Below, piece by piece: positions 30,052 to 63,683 of a stretch of 64,000 nucleotides of DNA. This stretch comes from Solwaraspora sp. WMMA2065 (GTDB taxonomy: Bacteria > Actinomycetota > Actinomycetes > Mycobacteriales > Micromonosporaceae): contig NZ_CP128361.1 of NCBI RefSeq assembly GCF_030345075.1, positions 3,844,001-3,908,000 of the forward strand, written 5' to 3'. The notes below the pieces were generated by a model. The model was given only the letters and a program-made list of their open reading frames with translations, was not told the DNA's origin and did not search any database. Made by a program: the position numbers and the translations under genes. The number at the start of each line of letters is the position of its first letter. The first letter of the stretch is position 1.

Positions 30052-32511
30052 TCAAACCTTCTCGATCGGCGCGTGCCGCAGCACCAGCCACATCGTCTGG
30101 TCGCCGAAGTCGACCTGCGCCCTGGCTCCCGGCCCGTGCCCCTCCACCGCCAACACCCGGCCCAGCCCGTACCGCTGGTGGTTGACCCGCTCCCCCACCG
30201 TCACCTTGGGCGCGGTGGGCAGCTCGCTGGCGGTACTCAGCCGACTCGGGTCCACCCCGAGCCGCTGAGCGAGGCGGGCGGCTTTCGGCGTACCGCCGGC
30301 GAAGCCGCCACCTCGCGCGACCGGTGACCGGTCTGCGGCGGCCGACCGCCCACCGACCCCGCCACCCGTGCCCGACCAGGAGGTGTACGCCGCCTCGGTC
30401 CGCTCCCAGCGGACCAGCTCGGCCGGCAACTCGGAGAGGAACCGCGACGGCGGGTTGTATGCCGGCTGCCCCCACGCGGCCCGGGTCACCGACCGGGACA
30501 GGAACAGGCGCTGCCGGGCCCGGGTGATCCCGACGTACGCCAGCCGCCGCTCCTCCTCCAGCTCCCGGGTGTCGCCGAGGGCCCGCAGGTGCGGGAAGAC
30601 GCCGTCCTCCAGACCGGTCAGAAAGACCACCGGGAACTCCAGGCCCTTGGCGGTGTGCAGCGTCATCAGGGTGACCACACCCTGGTGGTCCGGGTCGTCG
30701 TCAGGCACCTGGTCGGCGTCGGCGACCAGCGCGACCTGCTCCAGGAAGCCGGCCACGGTCGCCGGCTCGTCGGACGCCTCGACCCGCTCGGTGTACTCGC
30801 GGGCCACGCTGACCAGCTCCTGCAGGTTCTCCACCCGGCCGGCGTCCTGCGGATCCAGGCTCTCCTCCAGCTCGGTCAGATAGCCCGAGCGCAGCAGCAC
30901 CGACTCCAGTGCCTCCTCCGGGGTGGTGGTGGCCAGCTGCTCCCGCACGCCGTCGAGCAGCGCCACGAAGTCGGTGATCGCGTTCACCGCCCGAGTGGAG
31001 ATCCCCGGTGCCTCGGCCGCCCGGCCCAGCGCAGCACCGAACGAGATCCGCTCGCGGGCGGCCAGCGCCTCGACGCACGCCTCGGCCCGGTCGCCGATGC
31101 CCCTACGCGGCGTGTTGAGTACCCGCCGGATGCTCACCGTGTCGTCGGCGTTGACCACCGCCCGCAGGTAGGCCAGCGCGTCGCGGACCTCCCTACGCTC
31201 GTAGAAGCGCACCCCGCCGACCACCTTGTACGGCAGGCCGACCCGGATGAACACCTCCTCGAAGACCCTGGACTGGGCGTTGGTGCGGTAGAAGACCGCC
31301 ACGTCGCCCGGTCGGGCCGCGCCGTCGTCGCACAACCGGTCGATCTGCCGGGCCGCCCAGTCCGCCTCGGCGTGCTCGGTGTCGGCGACGTAGCCGACGA
31401 TCTGCTCGCCGTCGCCCTGGTCGCTCCACAGCCGCTTCGGCTTGCGGCCGGCGTTGTTGGTGATCACCGCGTTGGCGGCGGTCAGGATCGTCTGGGTGGA
31501 GCGGTAGTTCTGCTCCAGCAGGATCGTCCTGGCCTGGGCGAAGTCCCGCTCGAACTCCAGAATGTTGCGGATGGTGGCGCCCCGGAAGGCGTAGATCGAC
31601 TGGTCTGCGTCGCCGACCACGCAGAGCTCCCCCGGCGGCACGTCGTCCGACCCGTCGCCCACCAGCTCCTTGACCAGCTGATACTGCGCGTGGTTGGTGT
31701 CCTGGTACTCGTCGACCAGCACGTGCCGGAACCGCCGCCGGTAGCTGCCGGCCACGTGCGGGTGGGCCTGCAGCAGGTGCACCGTCGTCATGATCAGGTC
31801 GTCGAAGTCGAGCGCGTGTGCCTCGCGCAGCCGACGCTGGTAGAGCGTGTAAGCCTCGGCCAGGGCCCGCTCATTGGGGCCGGCCGCCCGGTCGGCGAAC
31901 GTCTCCGGGTCGACCAGCTCGTTCTTCAGGTTCGACACCTGGGTGGCCAGCCCACGGGCCGGGTAGCGCTTCGGGTCCAGGTCGAGCTCCCGGGCGACCA
32001 GCTGCATCAGCCGCCGTGAGTCGTCCGCGTCGTAGATGGAGAACGTCGACTTCAGCCCCGCGTGCTCGTGCTCGGCCCGCAGGATCCGTACGCAGGCGGA
32101 GTGGAAGGTGGAGACCCACATCATCCGGGCCCGCGGCCCGACCAGGTTGCCGACCCGCTCCTTCAGCTCACCGGCCGCCTTGTTGGTGAAGGTGATCGCC
32201 AGGACCTCACCGGGGTGGGTCTGCCTGGCCGCGAGCAGGTACGCGATCCGGTGGGTGAGCACCTTCGTCTTGCCGGAACCAGCGCCGGCCACGATCAGCA
32301 GCGGGCCACCGGCGTGGGTGACCGCCTCTCGTTGCGGGCCGTTGAGCCCGGTCAGCAGCGCGGCGGCAGCCAAATTGGGCTCAGCCGGCCCTCGGCCGGC
32401 CGAACTGGGCTCAGCCGGCCCTCGGCCGGCCGAACTGGGCTCAGCCGGCGGACCGCCCCGATCCGTGACTGGTACGGATGGGGCCGCTGGGGTTTCGAAG
32501 AGTGGATGCAT
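30052..32511 (-). CDS. pcrA: UvrD/PcrA-type ATP-dependent DNA helicase
   Basis: An 819-residue SF1 helicase. It has LLTGLNGPQREAVTHAGGPL, Walker A VAGAGSGKTKVL, AITFTNKAAGELKERV, VDEYQDTNHAQYQLV, QSIYAFRGATIRNILEFERD, LEQNYRSTQTILTAANAVI, VTLMTLHTAKGLEFPVVFL and YVGITRARQRLFL. The C-terminal 50 residues (VGERVNHQRYGLGRVLAVEG) form the Tudor-like domain that binds RNA polymerase. ATG 32511 is chosen; the N-terminal 40 residues include a 10-residue repeat AEPSSAGRGP encoded by a 30-bp tandem repeat. Used in nucleotide excision repair and replication restart. Confidence 0.95.
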   Translation of the reverse strand: MHPLFETPAAPSVPVTDRGGPPAEPSSAGRGPAEPSSAGRGPAEPNLAAAALLTGLNGPQREAVTHAGGPLLIVAGAGSGKTKVLTHRIAYLLAARQTHPGEVLAITFTNKAAGELKERVGNLVGPRARMMWVSTFHSACVRILRAEHEHAGLKSTFSIYDADDSRRLMQLVARELDLDPKRYPARGLATQVSNLKNELVDPETFADRAAGPNERALAEAYTLYQRRLREAHALDFDDLIMTTVHLLQAHPHVAGSYRRRFRHVLVDEYQDTNHAQYQLVKELVGDGSDDVPPGELCVVGDADQSIYAFRGATIRNILEFERDFAQARTILLEQNYRSTQTILTAANAVITNNAGRKPKRLWSDQGDGEQIVGYVADTEHAEADWAARQIDRLCDDGAARPGDVAVFYRTNAQSRVFEEVFIRVGLPYKVVGGVRFYERREVRDALAYLRAVVNADDTVSIRRVLNTPRRGIGDRAEACVEALAARERISFGAALGRAAEAPGISTRAVNAITDFVALLDGVREQLATTTPEEALESVLLRSGYLTELEESLDPQDAGRVENLQELVSVAREYTERVEASDEPATVAGFLEQVALVADADQVPDDDPDHQGVVTLMTLHTAKGLEFPVVFLTGLEDGVFPHLRALGDTRELEEERRLAYVGITRARQRLFLSRSVTRAAWGQPAYNPPSRFLSELPAELVRWERTEAAYTSWSGTGGGVGGRSAAADRSPVARGGGFAGGTPKAARLAQRLGVDPSRLSTASELPTAPKVTVGERVNHQRYGLGRVLAVEGHGPGARAQVDFGDQTMWLVLRHAPIEKV
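32377..32450 (-). repeat. 30-bp in-frame tandem repeat inside pcrA
   Basis: Two identical 30-bp copies (32377-32406, 32407-32436) and the first 13 bases of a third. Each copy adds ten residues of the disordered PcrA N-terminus without shifting the frame. Confidence 0.9.
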
Positions 32512-32623
32512 CGCACGGGCGAGTCTATGCCGCACGACCGACAGCCCCGCGCCGCCAGGCCCGCGCCGCCAGACTGGGGCCGTCGGCGCGCTGGGTGTCT
32601 TCCCAGAGGGTGGCGGAATTCTT

Positions 32624-32650
32624 GCGCTGGCGTCGCCAGCCTGGGCATAC
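32624..32650 (+). promoter_or_regulatory. Candidate promoter of the Phe leader/chorismate mutase transcript
   Basis: TTGCGC (32624-32629) and the -10-like CATACT (32645-32650) are 15 bp apart; shifting the -35 by one or two bases gives a near-normal spacer. The GTG of the leader peptide begins 7 nt after the -10, where transcription is expected to start, so the leader peptide mRNA is probably leaderless. Confidence 0.45.
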
Positions 32651-32657
32651 TCGTAGC

Positions 32658-32726
32658 GTGATCCGCCAGGCACGATTCTTCTTTAGCTACGGTTCCGGGA
32701 GTCCGGCTGCCGTAGGTCGCGCCTGA
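32658..32726 (+). CDS. Phe-rich leader peptide of the chorismate mutase attenuator
   Basis: A 22-residue reading frame from GTG: M-I-R-Q-A-R-F-F-F-S-Y-G-S-G-S-P-A-A-V-G-R-A, stop TGA at 32724-32726. Three consecutive Phe codons (TTC TTC TTT, 32676-32684) and a Tyr two codons later are what a leader peptide sensing charged tRNA-Phe should contain, and the downstream gene, chorismate mutase, makes the prephenate that feeds Phe and Tyr. It has no SD and probably starts as a leaderless mRNA. The stop lies just before a palindromic terminator. Too short to have a role as a protein. Confidence 0.75.
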   Translation: MIRQARFFFSYGSGSPAAVGRA

Positions 32727-32775
32727 TCATCAGACCTACAAGTGCCCCGGGCTCTCGCGAGAGCCCGGGGCACTT
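32697..32775 (+). promoter_or_regulatory. Phe attenuator: antiterminator, pause hairpin and terminator
   Basis: Three pairings are visible. GGGAGTCCGG (32697-32706) can pair with CCGGGCTCTC (32747-32756) with two G-U wobbles: antiterminator. GTAGGTC (32712-32718) pairs with GACCTAC (32733-32739): a hairpin inside it. The perfect 36-bp palindrome at 32740-32775 (18-bp half-sites) is the terminator, and its left half contains 32747-32756. A ribosome stalled on the Phe codons would leave 32697 onwards free to form the antiterminator; a ribosome reaching the stop codon would cover it and let the terminator form. Confidence 0.72.
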
Positions 32776-32826
32776 CGCGTTCCGGGTTCCGCGTCCACCG
32801 GGGCCGGACAGTCCAGGAGGCAGGAC

Positions 32827-33213
32827 ATGGGGACCAACGCCGTTGCGCACACCGCCGACAGCAGCGCGACGCCACCGGCCGGCACCGCTGAGGAGGCGGG
32901 CCAGTCTGGCGCGACCGGCCCGGCAGGGCGATCCGACGGTCGTCACCAGACCGGGACGGACGCGCCGGAGGCGGCCGACCGTATCCTGGCCATCCGAAAC
33001 AGGATCAACGAGATCGACGACGCGCTGATCGCGCTCTGGCAGGAACGGGCCGAGCTGTCGCGGCAGGTGGGCGCGGTCCGGATCGCCTCGGGCGGCACCC
33101 GGCTGGTGCTCTCCCGGGAACGTGAGATTGTCGACCGCTACCGGTCTGAACTGGGTGCCGACGGCACCCAGTTGGCGCTGCTGGTGCTGCGGGCCGGCCG
33201 CGGCCCACTGTGA
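32827..33213 (+). CDS. Chorismate mutase (AroQ type)
   Basis: A 128-residue protein whose last 80 residues form the all-helical AroQ chorismate mutase: RILAIRNRINEIDDALIALW, QERAELSRQVGAVRIASGG, RLVLSREREIVDRYRSELG, with the key Arg, Lys/Arg and Glu positions of the short actinobacterial type. The first 45 residues are a low-complexity Ala/Gly/Thr tail. It converts chorismate to prephenate for Phe and Tyr; in mycobacteria and corynebacteria this type works best bound to DAHP synthase. AGGAGG precedes the ATG. It follows the Phe leader/attenuator. Confidence 0.9.
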   Translation: MGTNAVAHTADSSATPPAGTAEEAGQSGATGPAGRSDGRHQTGTDAPEAADRILAIRNRINEIDDALIALWQERAELSRQVGAVRIASGGTRLVLSREREIVDRYRSELGADGTQLALLVLRAGRGPL

Positions 33214-61247: not shown

Positions 61248-61527
61248 TTGTGACTCCCCTCTCCCGCCAGCAGCAGATCACGCGAGGCACGCTCGCTCAT
61301 GTGCTTTGCCACGAAAAAAGATGAAAGTTCAGGACCGGCGGCCACGTCGCCGACCGGCTATCGCGCGCAGGTTCCGACCCGGGTGTTCCCACACGTTCCG
61401 GCACGGGTGATTGAGCAGTGGGACTCCCGGGTACCCCGGTGACATGAAGGACCGGAGCGCTTGCGCGGCCGGCCGCCCGGTCCTACCACGAAGTGTCCGC
61501 GGGAGCCGCGCGGAAGGAGGGGTGCAG

Positions 61528-61956
61528 ATGTCGGATGTACGCCGACTGCCCGGACCGATCGTCGACCTGTGGGAGTGGCAGATCCTCGGTGCCTGCCGTG
61601 GCCGGGACAGCGCCCAGTTCTTCCACCCCGACGGTGAGCGGGGGTCGTCACGCAACCGCCGGGAGTCTGGAGCCAAGGCGGTCTGCCGGACCTGCCCGGT
61701 CCGCGCGGAGTGCGCCGCGCACGCCCTGTCGGTGCGCGAGCCGTACGGGGTGTGGGGCGGCTTCAGCGAGTCGGAACGGCTCCGGCTGCTCGCCCTCGGC
61801 TGGGAGGATCTTGCCGACCGCCGTGGCGGCCGGGTCGATGTGCAACGGCTGGAGGCCCGGCTGGGCCGACCGCACAAGTCGACCGTGCCGGCCCAGCGCC
61901 GGCCGGAGTCGGCCGCCGTCAGGCCGCAGCCGGCTGACTCGGCCACCGCCGCCTGA
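61528..61956 (+). CDS. WhiB-family iron-sulfur transcription factor
   Basis: A 142-residue protein, MSDVRRLPGPIVDLWEWQIL. The four cluster ligands are Cys23 (GACRGRD), Cys53, Cys56 (AVCRTCPVRAEC) and Cys62, followed by PYGVWGGFSESER, the G(V/I)WGG turn that binds sigma region 4. The C-terminus is basic and may contact DNA. AAGGAGGGG precedes ATG 61528 by 6 nt. Divergent from the BldM/WhiI-like regulator; a WhiB gene is also close to guaB2/groEL1 in mycobacteria (whiB3). Confidence 0.94.
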   Translation: MSDVRRLPGPIVDLWEWQILGACRGRDSAQFFHPDGERGSSRNRRESGAKAVCRTCPVRAECAAHALSVREPYGVWGGFSESERLRLLALGWEDLADRRGGRVDVQRLEARLGRPHKSTVPAQRRPESAAVRPQPADSATAA

Positions 61957-62048: not shown

Positions 62049-63683
62049 CTACTGGACTGTTACGCGGACCGAGTGCCAGCCTGTCGCCCCGTCCGGGGCG
62101 ACAGGCTGGCGTAGTTCGGGCTGGGTGGCACCGGTCCCGTCAGTGGCCCGGACCTGCAGTAGGTGCTCACCCGAGGTTGCCGGCCACTGCCAGACCCACT
62201 GCACCCAGGTGTCTGCGGAGACCGCCGGGGCCAGCTCGGCCGGCTGCCAGGGGCCGTCGTCCACCCGTACCTCGACGCCGCTGATGCCCCGGTGCGGGGC
62301 CCACGCCACCCCGGCCACCGGTACGGTGCCGGCGGACAGTTCGGCGCGGACCCGGGGGGTGTCGATCCGGGACTGGGTCTTGATCGGGCCCTGCGCCGCC
62401 CAGCCGCGCGGCACCCAGTACGCGTCGAAGTCGGCGAAGCTGGTCAACTCCAGCTCGGTGACCCACTTGCAGGCGGAGACGTACCCGTAGAGGCCGGGCA
62501 CCACCATGCGGACCGGAAAACCGTGCTCGACCGGCAGTGGTTGACCGTTCATTCCGACCGCGAGCAGCGCGTCCCGCCCGTCCAGCAGCGCTTCGGTCGG
62601 GGTGCCGCAGGTCCAACCGTCGACGGACCGGCCGACGACCTGGTCGGCTCCGGGCAGCGGGCCCGCCTCGACCAGCAGGTCCCGCACCGGTACGCCGAGC
62701 CAGCGGGCGTTGCCGATGAGAGTCCCGCCCACCTCGTTCGAGACACAGGCCAGCGTGACGTACCGCTCCACCAGCTCCATCCCGAGCAGGTCGGAGTAGC
62801 TCAGGGTGATCGGGTTGGTCACCCGGCCGTGGATCCGCAGCTGCCATTCGTCCGGGTCGACCTGGGGCACGACCAACGCGGTGTCGATCCGGTAGAAGTC
62901 ACGGTTGGTGGTGACGTACCGGCTCAGCCCCGGCGCCGCCGGGTCCACACCCGAAGGCAGCGGCGGCGCGGCGTCGACCGGAGCGGGCAGCGACACCGCG
63001 GACCGGGCGGTGGCCACCCCCCGGCGTTGTGCCAGCCAACGACCGCCGGCACCGGTGACCAGGGCGGCACCGACCGACACGCCGACGCTGGACAGGAAAC
63101 GGCGCCGGTCGGCGGTGCCGGCACCGGGCTGAACCGGTACCGGTTCATCCGACGAGGCCGACGAGGCGACGGAAGCCGGCCGCAGCGGGCCGGCGAGCAG
63201 CGCCCAGAGCAGCAGCGCGGCGGCGGACGCGCCGATCACCGCCGGCAGGACGGCGGCCGGCCCGGCACCGGGCCGGGTGAGCGCGGCCGCCGCGCCGACC
63301 ACGCCGAAGACCGCGACGCCGACGAAGCCGACTGCGAGCCGGCCGGCGGCCAGCACCCCGATCACGGCCGCGAACCCGGCGAGCAGTACGCCGGTGCCGA
63401 TCAGCAGCGCGGTCTTGTCGTGTACGCCGAACACGTCGATGGCAAACTGTTTCAGCGGCTCGGGGACGGTGTCGACGACCACCCCGCCGACCGCGACCAG
63501 CGGTGCCGAGCGGGCGCCAGTGGCTACGGCGATCAGCTCGGCCAGGCCCAGGGCGAGCGCGGCAGCGGCCACCCCGGCAAGCGCTGCGAGCGGTCCGGGC
63601 AGGCGGCCCGGCGGTTCGGTCTGCGCAGCTGGCCCGGTCGGCTCCGGCCCTGTCGCGTCCGGCACCGTCGGCTCCGGCCTCAT
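62049..63683 (-). CDS. Membrane-anchored molybdopterin oxidoreductase, sulfite oxidase family
   Basis: A 544-residue protein. The N-terminal 170 residues hold four or five membrane helices (LAALAGVAAAALALGLAELI, LLIGTGVLLAGFAAVIGVLA), then RRRFLSSVGVSVGAALVTGA, and an extracytoplasmic domain with ITLSYSDLLGMELVERYVTL, the Mo-ligand Cys in TLACVSNEVGG, HGFPVRMVVPGLYGYVSACK and a C-terminal Mo-dimerisation domain (GISGVEVRVDDGPWQPAELA). It should oxidise sulfite or reduce a small oxide; whether sulfite is the substrate cannot be told. ATG start with weak SD. Confidence 0.92.
   Translation of the reverse strand: MRPEPTVPDATGPEPTGPAAQTEPPGRLPGPLAALAGVAAAALALGLAELIAVATGARSAPLVAVGGVVVDTVPEPLKQFAIDVFGVHDKTALLIGTGVLLAGFAAVIGVLAAGRLAVGFVGVAVFGVVGAAAALTRPGAGPAAVLPAVIGASAAALLLWALLAGPLRPASVASSASSDEPVPVQPGAGTADRRRFLSSVGVSVGAALVTGAGGRWLAQRRGVATARSAVSLPAPVDAAPPLPSGVDPAAPGLSRYVTTNRDFYRIDTALVVPQVDPDEWQLRIHGRVTNPITLSYSDLLGMELVERYVTLACVSNEVGGTLIGNARWLGVPVRDLLVEAGPLPGADQVVGRSVDGWTCGTPTEALLDGRDALLAVGMNGQPLPVEHGFPVRMVVPGLYGYVSACKWVTELELTSFADFDAYWVPRGWAAQGPIKTQSRIDTPRVRAELSAGTVPVAGVAWAPHRGISGVEVRVDDGPWQPAELAPAVSADTWVQWVWQWPATSGEHLLQVRATDGTGATQPELRQPVAPDGATGWHSVRVTVQ

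Follow-up and report, generated by a model that had tools for sequence, protein, structure and literature searches.

Upstream of the chorismate mutase gene of Solwaraspora sp. WMMA2065 lies a short leader region, and the question it raises is whether this region ties expression of the enzyme to the supply of the amino acids made from its product. The locus is part of a stretch of 64,000 nucleotides (nt) from contig NZ_CP128361.1 (assembly GCF_030345075.1, positions 3,844,001 to 3,908,000), called the window below, and coordinates are those of the window. Chorismate mutase makes prephenate, the precursor common to phenylalanine (Phe) and tyrosine (Tyr), and this branch point is the committing step toward both. 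An earlier note on this DNA had proposed that the gene is preceded by a Phe leader peptide and an attenuator. Based on the comparisons described here, we consider it probable (about 0.83) that the leader is a ribosome-mediated transcription attenuator for chorismate mutase, one that would sense charged tRNA-Phe and tRNA-Tyr.

The elements of the locus are as follows.

32622-32627, plus strand: -35-like hexamer TTGCGC, seen in the sequence 18 nt upstream of the -10-like hexamer
32646-32651, plus strand: -10-like hexamer CATACT, 6 nt before the GTG, as in relatives
32658-32726, plus strand: open reading frame (ORF) of the leader peptide, with GTG at 32658-32660, 22 codons and TGA at 32724-32726, predicted to be leaderless
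32658-32730, plus strand: H0, the outer protector helix of the minimum free energy (MFE) fold, enclosing the aromatic codons and H1
32676-32690, plus strand: putative regulatory codons TTC TTC TTT AGC TAC (Phe Phe Phe Ser Tyr)
32687-32715, plus strand: H1, the protector hairpin, pairing 32687-32693 with 32709-32715 and 32695-32698 with 32703-32706
32697-32706, plus strand: 5' arm of the antiterminator (AT), GGGAGUCCGG, also called region 2
32712-32739, plus strand: H2, hairpin GUAGGUC/GACCUAC, nested within AT and holding the leader stop codon in its loop
32740-32775, plus strand: putative terminator hairpin, a perfect 36-nt palindrome without a U-tract
32747-32756, plus strand: 3' arm of AT, falling within the terminator 5' arm
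32815-32820, plus strand: Shine-Dalgarno sequence AGGAGG of the chorismate mutase gene, seen in the sequence
32827-33213, plus strand: the presumed target gene, an AroQ chorismate mutase of the Rv0948c/MtCM type (128 amino acids), from Pfam, a structure match, and the ORF list

The GTG frame with its FFF and Tyr codons, the antiterminator, the hairpin of 7 base pairs (bp), the palindrome, and the AroQ gene at 32827 had been listed in the earlier note, and all of them are present. The leader ORF encodes VIRQARFFFSYGSGSPAAVGRA, with TTC TTC TTT at 32676-32684 and TAC at 32688-32690. Every one of the 10 positions of the AT arms (32697-32706 and 32747-32756) pairs, two of them as G-U, and the H2 arms (32712-32718 and 32733-32739) pair at 7 of 7. 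The sequence at 32740-32775 is its own reverse complement, with 18-nt arms that give a hairpin of ∼16 bp and a 4-nt loop; of the 25 inverted repeats listed for the 64-kb window with arms at most 12 nt apart, no perfect one is longer. The protector hairpin H1 and the outer helix H0 had been overlooked. The 5' arm of H1 falls in the last Tyr codon and the Gly codon that follows it. H0 pairs 32658-32663 with 32725-32730, 32668-32671 with 32721-32724, and 32673-32676 with 32716-32719, which in the MFE fold encloses the aromatic codons within an internal loop and ties the codons upstream of them to the end of the frame. Since AT shares 32697-32698 and 32703-32706 with H1, and 32747-32756 with the terminator, these structures are mutually exclusive. 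The protein encoded at 32827 matches Pfam family PF01817 (chorismate mutase type II, CM_2; expectation value (E) 5e-10), and its closest solved structure is Mycobacterium tuberculosis Rv0948c (2qbv, E 4.7e-18), followed by 6ygt, 5mpv, and 5hub.

The same arrangement is found in many relatives. Among 32 related chorismate mutase loci in named genomes, 29 (L002-L030), most of them from Micromonosporaceae, have a leader with an aromatic run and a YG motif followed by a hairpin; no leader was seen in the other three (L031-L033). A covariance model, R1, built from 28 leaders (set A1; L011 and L030 were left out) matches 248 of 250 Micromonosporaceae genomes, representing 43 of 44 genera (E ≤0.001); among genomes with completeness of 90% or more and contamination of 5% or less, it matches 234 of 234. 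All of the R1 places listed in this family cover the full length of the model; many of the matches at the level of the class cover the terminator part alone, and these were excluded from the leader counts. Each of 20 further, divergent loci (13 from Micromonosporaceae, the other 7 from different families in the order) carries the leader and its hairpin, and in all 20 a chorismate mutase lies within 800 nt downstream (E 4.5e-21 or better); these loci were picked as R1 hits, and 6 of the 16 other-family genomes in that search gave none. No relative of the leader was found in the viral contigs that were scanned.

Across the class, a related chorismate mutase is present in 89 of 296 genomes. Sixty of the 89, all from outside Micromonosporaceae, supplied upstream regions, of which 59 were scanned (one was shortened by a contig end); the scan looked for a short ORF having three or more Phe or Tyr per five codons and a -10-like element close upstream. 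This combination was found in 28 of the 59 regions and on none of the 59 reverse strands; without the -10 condition, the Phe/Tyr-rich ORF was found in 31. By family, here labeled f1, f2, and so on, the scan without the -10 condition was positive in f2 (7/14), f20 (16/20), f33 (2/2), f37 (1/1), f3 (1/1), f15 (3/4), and f19 (1/15), and negative in f13 (0/1) and f23 (0/1). In f20, which appears to be Streptomyces, the count is 19 of 20 once the variants SLFTYG and SVFTYG are allowed, and f23 has a shorter leader, MSTQRFYGHRIPVPARV. Family f2 is taken to be mycobacteria-like because one of its enzymes matches the M. tuberculosis structure over 81 residues (E 2.7e-40).

As a separate observation, no leader was seen at the chorismate mutase loci L031 (Streptomyces sp. 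WM6378) and L133 (f20). The genome of L133 has another copy, L085, which does carry a leader, so the leader there marks one of two paralogues.

The sets behind the comparisons that follow differ in composition. L011, L015, and L071 were left out of the protein alignment; L128, L085, and L075 (of 25) were left out of set A5 as divergent; and L125 is absent from the f20 structure sets. Sets A4 and A7 hold a single copy per distinct sequence, and set A6 consists of 34 hand-picked leaders, namely the window, 20 genus representatives, and 13 others. The leaders labeled f1 include L011 and L030, which are loci in metagenome-assembled genomes of other lineages.

Which amino acids would such a leader sense? 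The earlier note had proposed Phe. Phe codons are indeed present in every leader with an assigned start, to which the codon counts were confined, but Tyr codons are present just as constantly: at least one codon for each precedes or completes the YG motif in 71 of 71 f1-labeled, 24 of 24 f20, 6 of 6 f2, and 1 of 1 f33 leaders. Alignment of relatives, which had been expected to reveal conserved FFF codons and covarying pairs, bore out the pairings, which covary or compensate, but FFF as such occurs in only 3 of 30 leaders, and the conserved feature is a mixed Phe/Tyr run. We infer from this codon content that the leader would sense Phe and Tyr together, via charged tRNA-Phe and tRNA-Tyr; a dual sensor is sensible because prephenate feeds both amino acids. 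The Phe codons are themselves unusual, as TTT accounts for 93 of 162 in the f1-labeled leaders and for 1 of 58 in a set of four window genes, although the leaders are related to each other and the counts are not independent. Slow decoding or low structure could account for this enrichment, of which 32682-32684 in the window is an example.

The position of the leader frame relative to its putative promoter is also conserved. A -10-like hexamer is found 6-7 nt upstream of the start codon, most often as CATACT or CACACT. It is present in 71 of 71 distinct f1-labeled leaders, 24 of 25 from f20, 6 of 6 from f2, and 1 of 1 from f33; no listed hexamer was found in the single leaders from f3, f37, and f23. 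The 45 nt leading up to the start codon contain TTGCGC in all 13 Micromonospora leaders and in 18 of the 30 leaders examined. Because the hexamer spacing fits a start at the leader start codon, transcription would begin at the GTG or ∼1 nt from it, and the peptide would be translated from a leaderless mRNA. The aroR leader of Corynebacterium glutamicum is said to have a leaderless start, reportedly described by Neshat et al. 2014. The earlier note had called such a leader unusual for an attenuator; in actinobacteria it is usual, as 7 of 8 leader peptides are called leaderless in the portion of the Streptomyces lividans annotation used here (PMC8079986).

H1 is the best-supported helix of the leader and, because it takes up the AT arm, it is a classical protector. 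In 59 distinct sequences from all families, its outer seven pairs are paired in 94.9% of cells, and 24 cells show double changes compared with 7.6 ± 2.1 after shuffling (0 of 500 shuffles) and at most 14 in slid structures, where the shuffles leave the relatedness of the sequences in place. A smaller set of 39 sequences gave a result that agrees. For H0, comparison of its two sides with permuted partners (2000 permutations) gave P<0.0005 over all 111 distinct leaders, and P values of 0.026 in f1, 0.0015 in f20, and <0.0005 in the other families. The number of H0 pairs was 12.1 in f1 and 13.3 in f20, compared with 6.8 and 5.7, respectively, when the 5' sides were shuffled; in six f2 leaders it was hardly above the shuffles (6.7 and 5.8 pairs). 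A separate closing helix, in which the start hexamer pairs with the sequence after the stop codon (GUGAUC/GAUCAC, AUGACU/AGUCA), caught the eye and was rejected. It has no within-family support (P 0.70 in f1, 0.10 in f20, 0.08 in the others; 0.0035 over all families), and the claim is therefore limited to H0 as a whole.

Within set A1, the terminator stem is retained with compensatory changes. The same set was nearly uninformative for AT and H2 (246 of 500 shuffles reach the observed double changes), because its leaders are too alike, and divergent loci were therefore needed. In 34 Micromonosporaceae sequences, AT with H2 is paired in 96.7% of cells (H2 alone, 96.6%). Double changes occur there at 3 pairs and in 4 cells, compared with 0.7 of each after shuffling (4 of 500 and 0 of 500 shuffles, respectively) and at most 1 in slid structures; the pair-type count is unremarkable, as 75 of 500 shuffles reach the observed value. 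At L161, inspected by eye, an AT pair has changed from G-C to A-U and the terminator is left with G-U at that position, a change that argues for selection on the antiterminator itself. Complementarity of the AT arms is above shuffles at the 0.05 level in 53 of 78 f1-labeled and 23 of 25 f20 leaders.

Computed folding is consistent with a switch. When the footprint of a ribosome waiting at the first aromatic codon is masked, computed AT pairing goes up in 64 of 65 f1-labeled and 25 of 25 f20 leaders, with the mean going from 0.30 in the free state to 0.66 in the stalled state for f1-labeled leaders and from 0.27 to 0.53 for f20. In shuffle controls (25 leaders per group) the corresponding changes are from 0.09 to 0.22 and from 0.14 to 0.21. 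The observed mean difference is equaled or exceeded by 11% of single shuffles. Elsewhere, AT pairing goes from 0.00 to 0.14 in f33, from 0.00 to 0.45 in f37, and from 0.06 to 0.68 in f23. The conserved aromatic codons, the compensatory pair changes, and the -10-like element 6-7 nt upstream of the start uphold the logic of ribosome-mediated attenuation that had been proposed for this locus.

From these elements we infer the start site, stalling, termination, and direction of the response as follows. With transcription beginning at about the GTG and the peptide read from the 5' end of the mRNA, a shortage of Phe or Tyr would stall the ribosome within the aromatic run. The footprint of the stalled ribosome would hide the 5' arms of H0 and H1, leaving region 2 (32697-32706) and the 5' arm of H2 free; H2 would fold, AT would zip around it and capture the 5' arm of the terminator, and polymerase would continue into the chorismate mutase gene. 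With ample Phe and Tyr, the ribosome would get to the stop codon in the H2 loop and melt H2, and the terminator would form. When the ribosome is released or absent, H0 and H1 would hold region 2, again permitting the terminator to form. This scheme keeps one half of the geometry in the earlier note: the computed stall at the aromatic codons frees the AT arm, as had been supposed, but termination of the leader does not cover that arm, because the stop codon begins 18 nt past its last base. Once at the stop codon, the ribosome would occupy and melt the 7-bp hairpin and would reach no further than the edge of the AT arm.

Several results weigh against this reading. The leader is found in at most 2 of 15 f19 regions and 7 of 14 f2 regions. 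Two of five measures for H1, the number of double-change pairs (3) and that of pair types (10), are not above shuffles (153 and 205 of 500, respectively). The AT compensations are few, at columns 15-76 twice and 17-74 once, and the one at 15-76 in L163 adjoins a broken neighbor pair. In f20, AT covariation is not above shuffles (115-150 of 500 on each of five measures), and the outer helix of AT is paired in 66% of cells only. Among the order-level leaders, AT complementarity is above shuffles in 2 of 7; the single f33, f37, and f23 leaders all fail this test, and complementarity is marginal in f2 (P 0.044-0.246 in five leaders whose hairpin arm was set by hand); by sequence comparison AT thus appears well supported in two families only and marginal outside f1 and f20. 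The computed switch of the window itself is small, with AT pairing of 0.51 when free, 0.71 with a stall at the first Phe codon, 0.58 at the Tyr codon, and 0.50 at the stop codon. With a ribosome at the stop, mean AT pairing is 0.43 in f1 and 0.50 in f20, so there is no clean off state, and two f2 leaders, in which the hairpin is possibly misplaced, have AT pairing of 0.00 in any state. Finally, a scan for terminators with at least five T found none, as no U-tract follows 32740-32775, and no more than 39 of 64 f1 and 8 of 25 f20 leaders have UUUU where the stem ends.

The missing U-tract, in the window as in the 25 of 64 f1 and 17 of 25 f20 leaders without UUUU, would also suit a hairpin that is not a terminator and acts on translation, on mRNA stability, or through Rho; mycobacterial Cys leaders without obvious terminators are reported in the part of PMC1262725 used here. 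We consider this unlikely. The hairpin ends 51 nt short of the chorismate mutase start codon and leaves AGGAGG unpaired, and AT takes an arm of the hairpin and not the ribosome-binding site.

That same 51-nt gap could accommodate a promoter, in which case the leader would be a constitutive short RNA only and chorismate mutase would be expressed mainly from elsewhere. A scan with the sigma-70 consensus found no promoter-like site in 32480-32900, which is a weak argument, since the leader's own promoter was missed as well. The conserved linkage of the leader to chorismate mutase, and the occurrence of a similar leader before 3-deoxy-D-arabino-heptulosonate 7-phosphate (DAHP) synthase in two genomes, fit regulation, and we regard an unregulated RNA as quite improbable.

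A ribosome-stalling leader need not report on charged tRNA, as the nascent chain YGxGSPAAVGRA could itself arrest the ribosome, perhaps with a ligand, and the C-terminal part of the peptide is near-invariant in the 28 leaders of A1. However, L188, L189, L191, and L192, from four f1 genera, have a 2-nt deletion in the H1 loop that gives the peptide a PGRRSR-like end and keeps the RNA; in f20, 1-nt insertions in L074 and L130 change the frame with the same effect. In L187, Ala codons replace the YG codons and H1 still pairs, as GCGGC/GCCGC. Codons that are rare in four genes of the window (GTA, 4 of 149 Val codons; GCA, 12 of 216 Ala; AGT, 6 of 91 Ser) recur in the leaders, as expected under a constraint on the RNA. 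Because the frameshifted ends and L187 keep the RNA, an arrest peptide is very improbable, and the RNA rather than the peptide seems to be under selection. A T-box or metabolite riboswitch in place of a translated leader, which a long leader on an amino acid gene might bring to mind, is hardly credible, as the window has no Rfam match at gathering scores, the eight hits at E ≤1 in 32600-32850 are microRNA- or small RNA-like hairpins under those scores (five related loci gave one sub-threshold hit, hairpin noise), and the aromatic run belongs to a reading frame whose start is fixed and which has a -10-like element.

The putative attenuator for chorismate mutase can be set beside known systems. 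In C. glutamicum, aroR, which has a Phe-Tyr-Phe leader, precedes aroF and gives enhanced expression under Phe limitation, according to the passages used from PMC11802643 and PMC4046766. Both aroR and the WMMA2065 leader are actinobacterial Phe/Tyr leader peptides ahead of an aromatic pathway gene; aroR controls DAHP synthase, whereas the WMMA2065 leader would control chorismate mutase, and the comparison is one with the Phe-Tyr-Phe motif of aroR only. Two f18 genomes carry leaders before DAHP synthase that link the chorismate mutase leader to the aroR theme. At L086 (1404-1640, minus strand), a leader of similar motif, MQQSFWRFYGYRPTARTVARQALR, and a GC-rich hairpin precede a DAHP synthase gene (PF00793), and at L093 a similar leader and hairpin, judged by eye, are in the same position; the motif in the two is FW.FYGYRP. 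One pattern scan found no comparable leader upstream of WMMA2065's own DAHP synthase or prephenate dehydratase.

The pheL-pheA system of Escherichia coli, as far as the cited part of PMC11802643 describes it, likewise has a leader peptide, control by charged tRNA-Phe, and an enzyme with chorismate mutase activity. In contrast to it, the leader described here has no Rfam match, always has Tyr codons, is predicted to be leaderless, and has a compound protector (H0 and H1), and the regulated enzyme is a monofunctional chorismate mutase of the Rv0948c type. The S. lividans attenuators for Leu, Trp, Ala, Ile, Met, and Thr are also mostly leaderless ORFs followed by hairpins, and none of the eight leader peptides in the part of that list used here is for Phe or Tyr (PMC8079986). 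Seliverstov et al. in 2005 described actinobacterial attenuators for trp, leuS, and ilv by the same approach and of the same kind of element, and the sections of that survey used here report no conserved RNA structures upstream of actinobacterial phenylalanine or tyrosine operons (PMC1262725). No description of a Phe/Tyr leader of chorismate mutase turned up in searches of an open-access library that lacks most subscription papers, and the terms Rv0948c and chorismate are absent from the main text of two mycobacterial papers (PMC9094748 and PMC4633059) and of PMC13236596.

The leader therefore fits a known kind of attenuator and may also qualify as a new RNA family. A bolder version of that claim, which we put forward tentatively and consider doubtful, is that the family extends over much of Actinomycetia, is built on competing compound hairpins (H0 and H1 versus H2 and AT), senses through the pioneer ribosome only, and also occurs before DAHP synthase in some lineages. 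Because H0 could also tie the 5'-terminal start codon to the sequence after the stop codon, sensing would be limited to a ribosome that loads during synthesis of the leader, which would then close itself.

Some neighboring features lie outside the attenuator.

30052-32673, minus strand: divergent UvrD/PcrA-type helicase, from Pfam and as the longest ORF

The true start of the helicase probably lies further inside this ORF, and a 30-nt tandem repeat (32369-32449, 2.7 copies, 96% matches) is present at its N-terminal end. The chorismate mutase gene is probably monocistronic, because the next large downstream ORF is convergent. Elsewhere in the window, the minus-strand ORF 62049-63683 has a perfect inverted repeat close to its end (62075-62110; arms of 17 nt and a loop of 2 nt), possibly a terminator, and the plus-strand ORF 61411-61956 looks, from its cysteine pattern, like a WhiB-type protein.

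If the attenuator reading is correct, it would provide a new RNA family for annotation and would extend attenuation to the Phe/Tyr branch in many Actinomycetia. Its natural variants, with frameshifted peptides and rebuilt hairpins, offer tests of coupled translation from a leaderless mRNA. In the biology of these organisms, the cell would probably switch chorismate mutase on when Phe or Tyr runs short.

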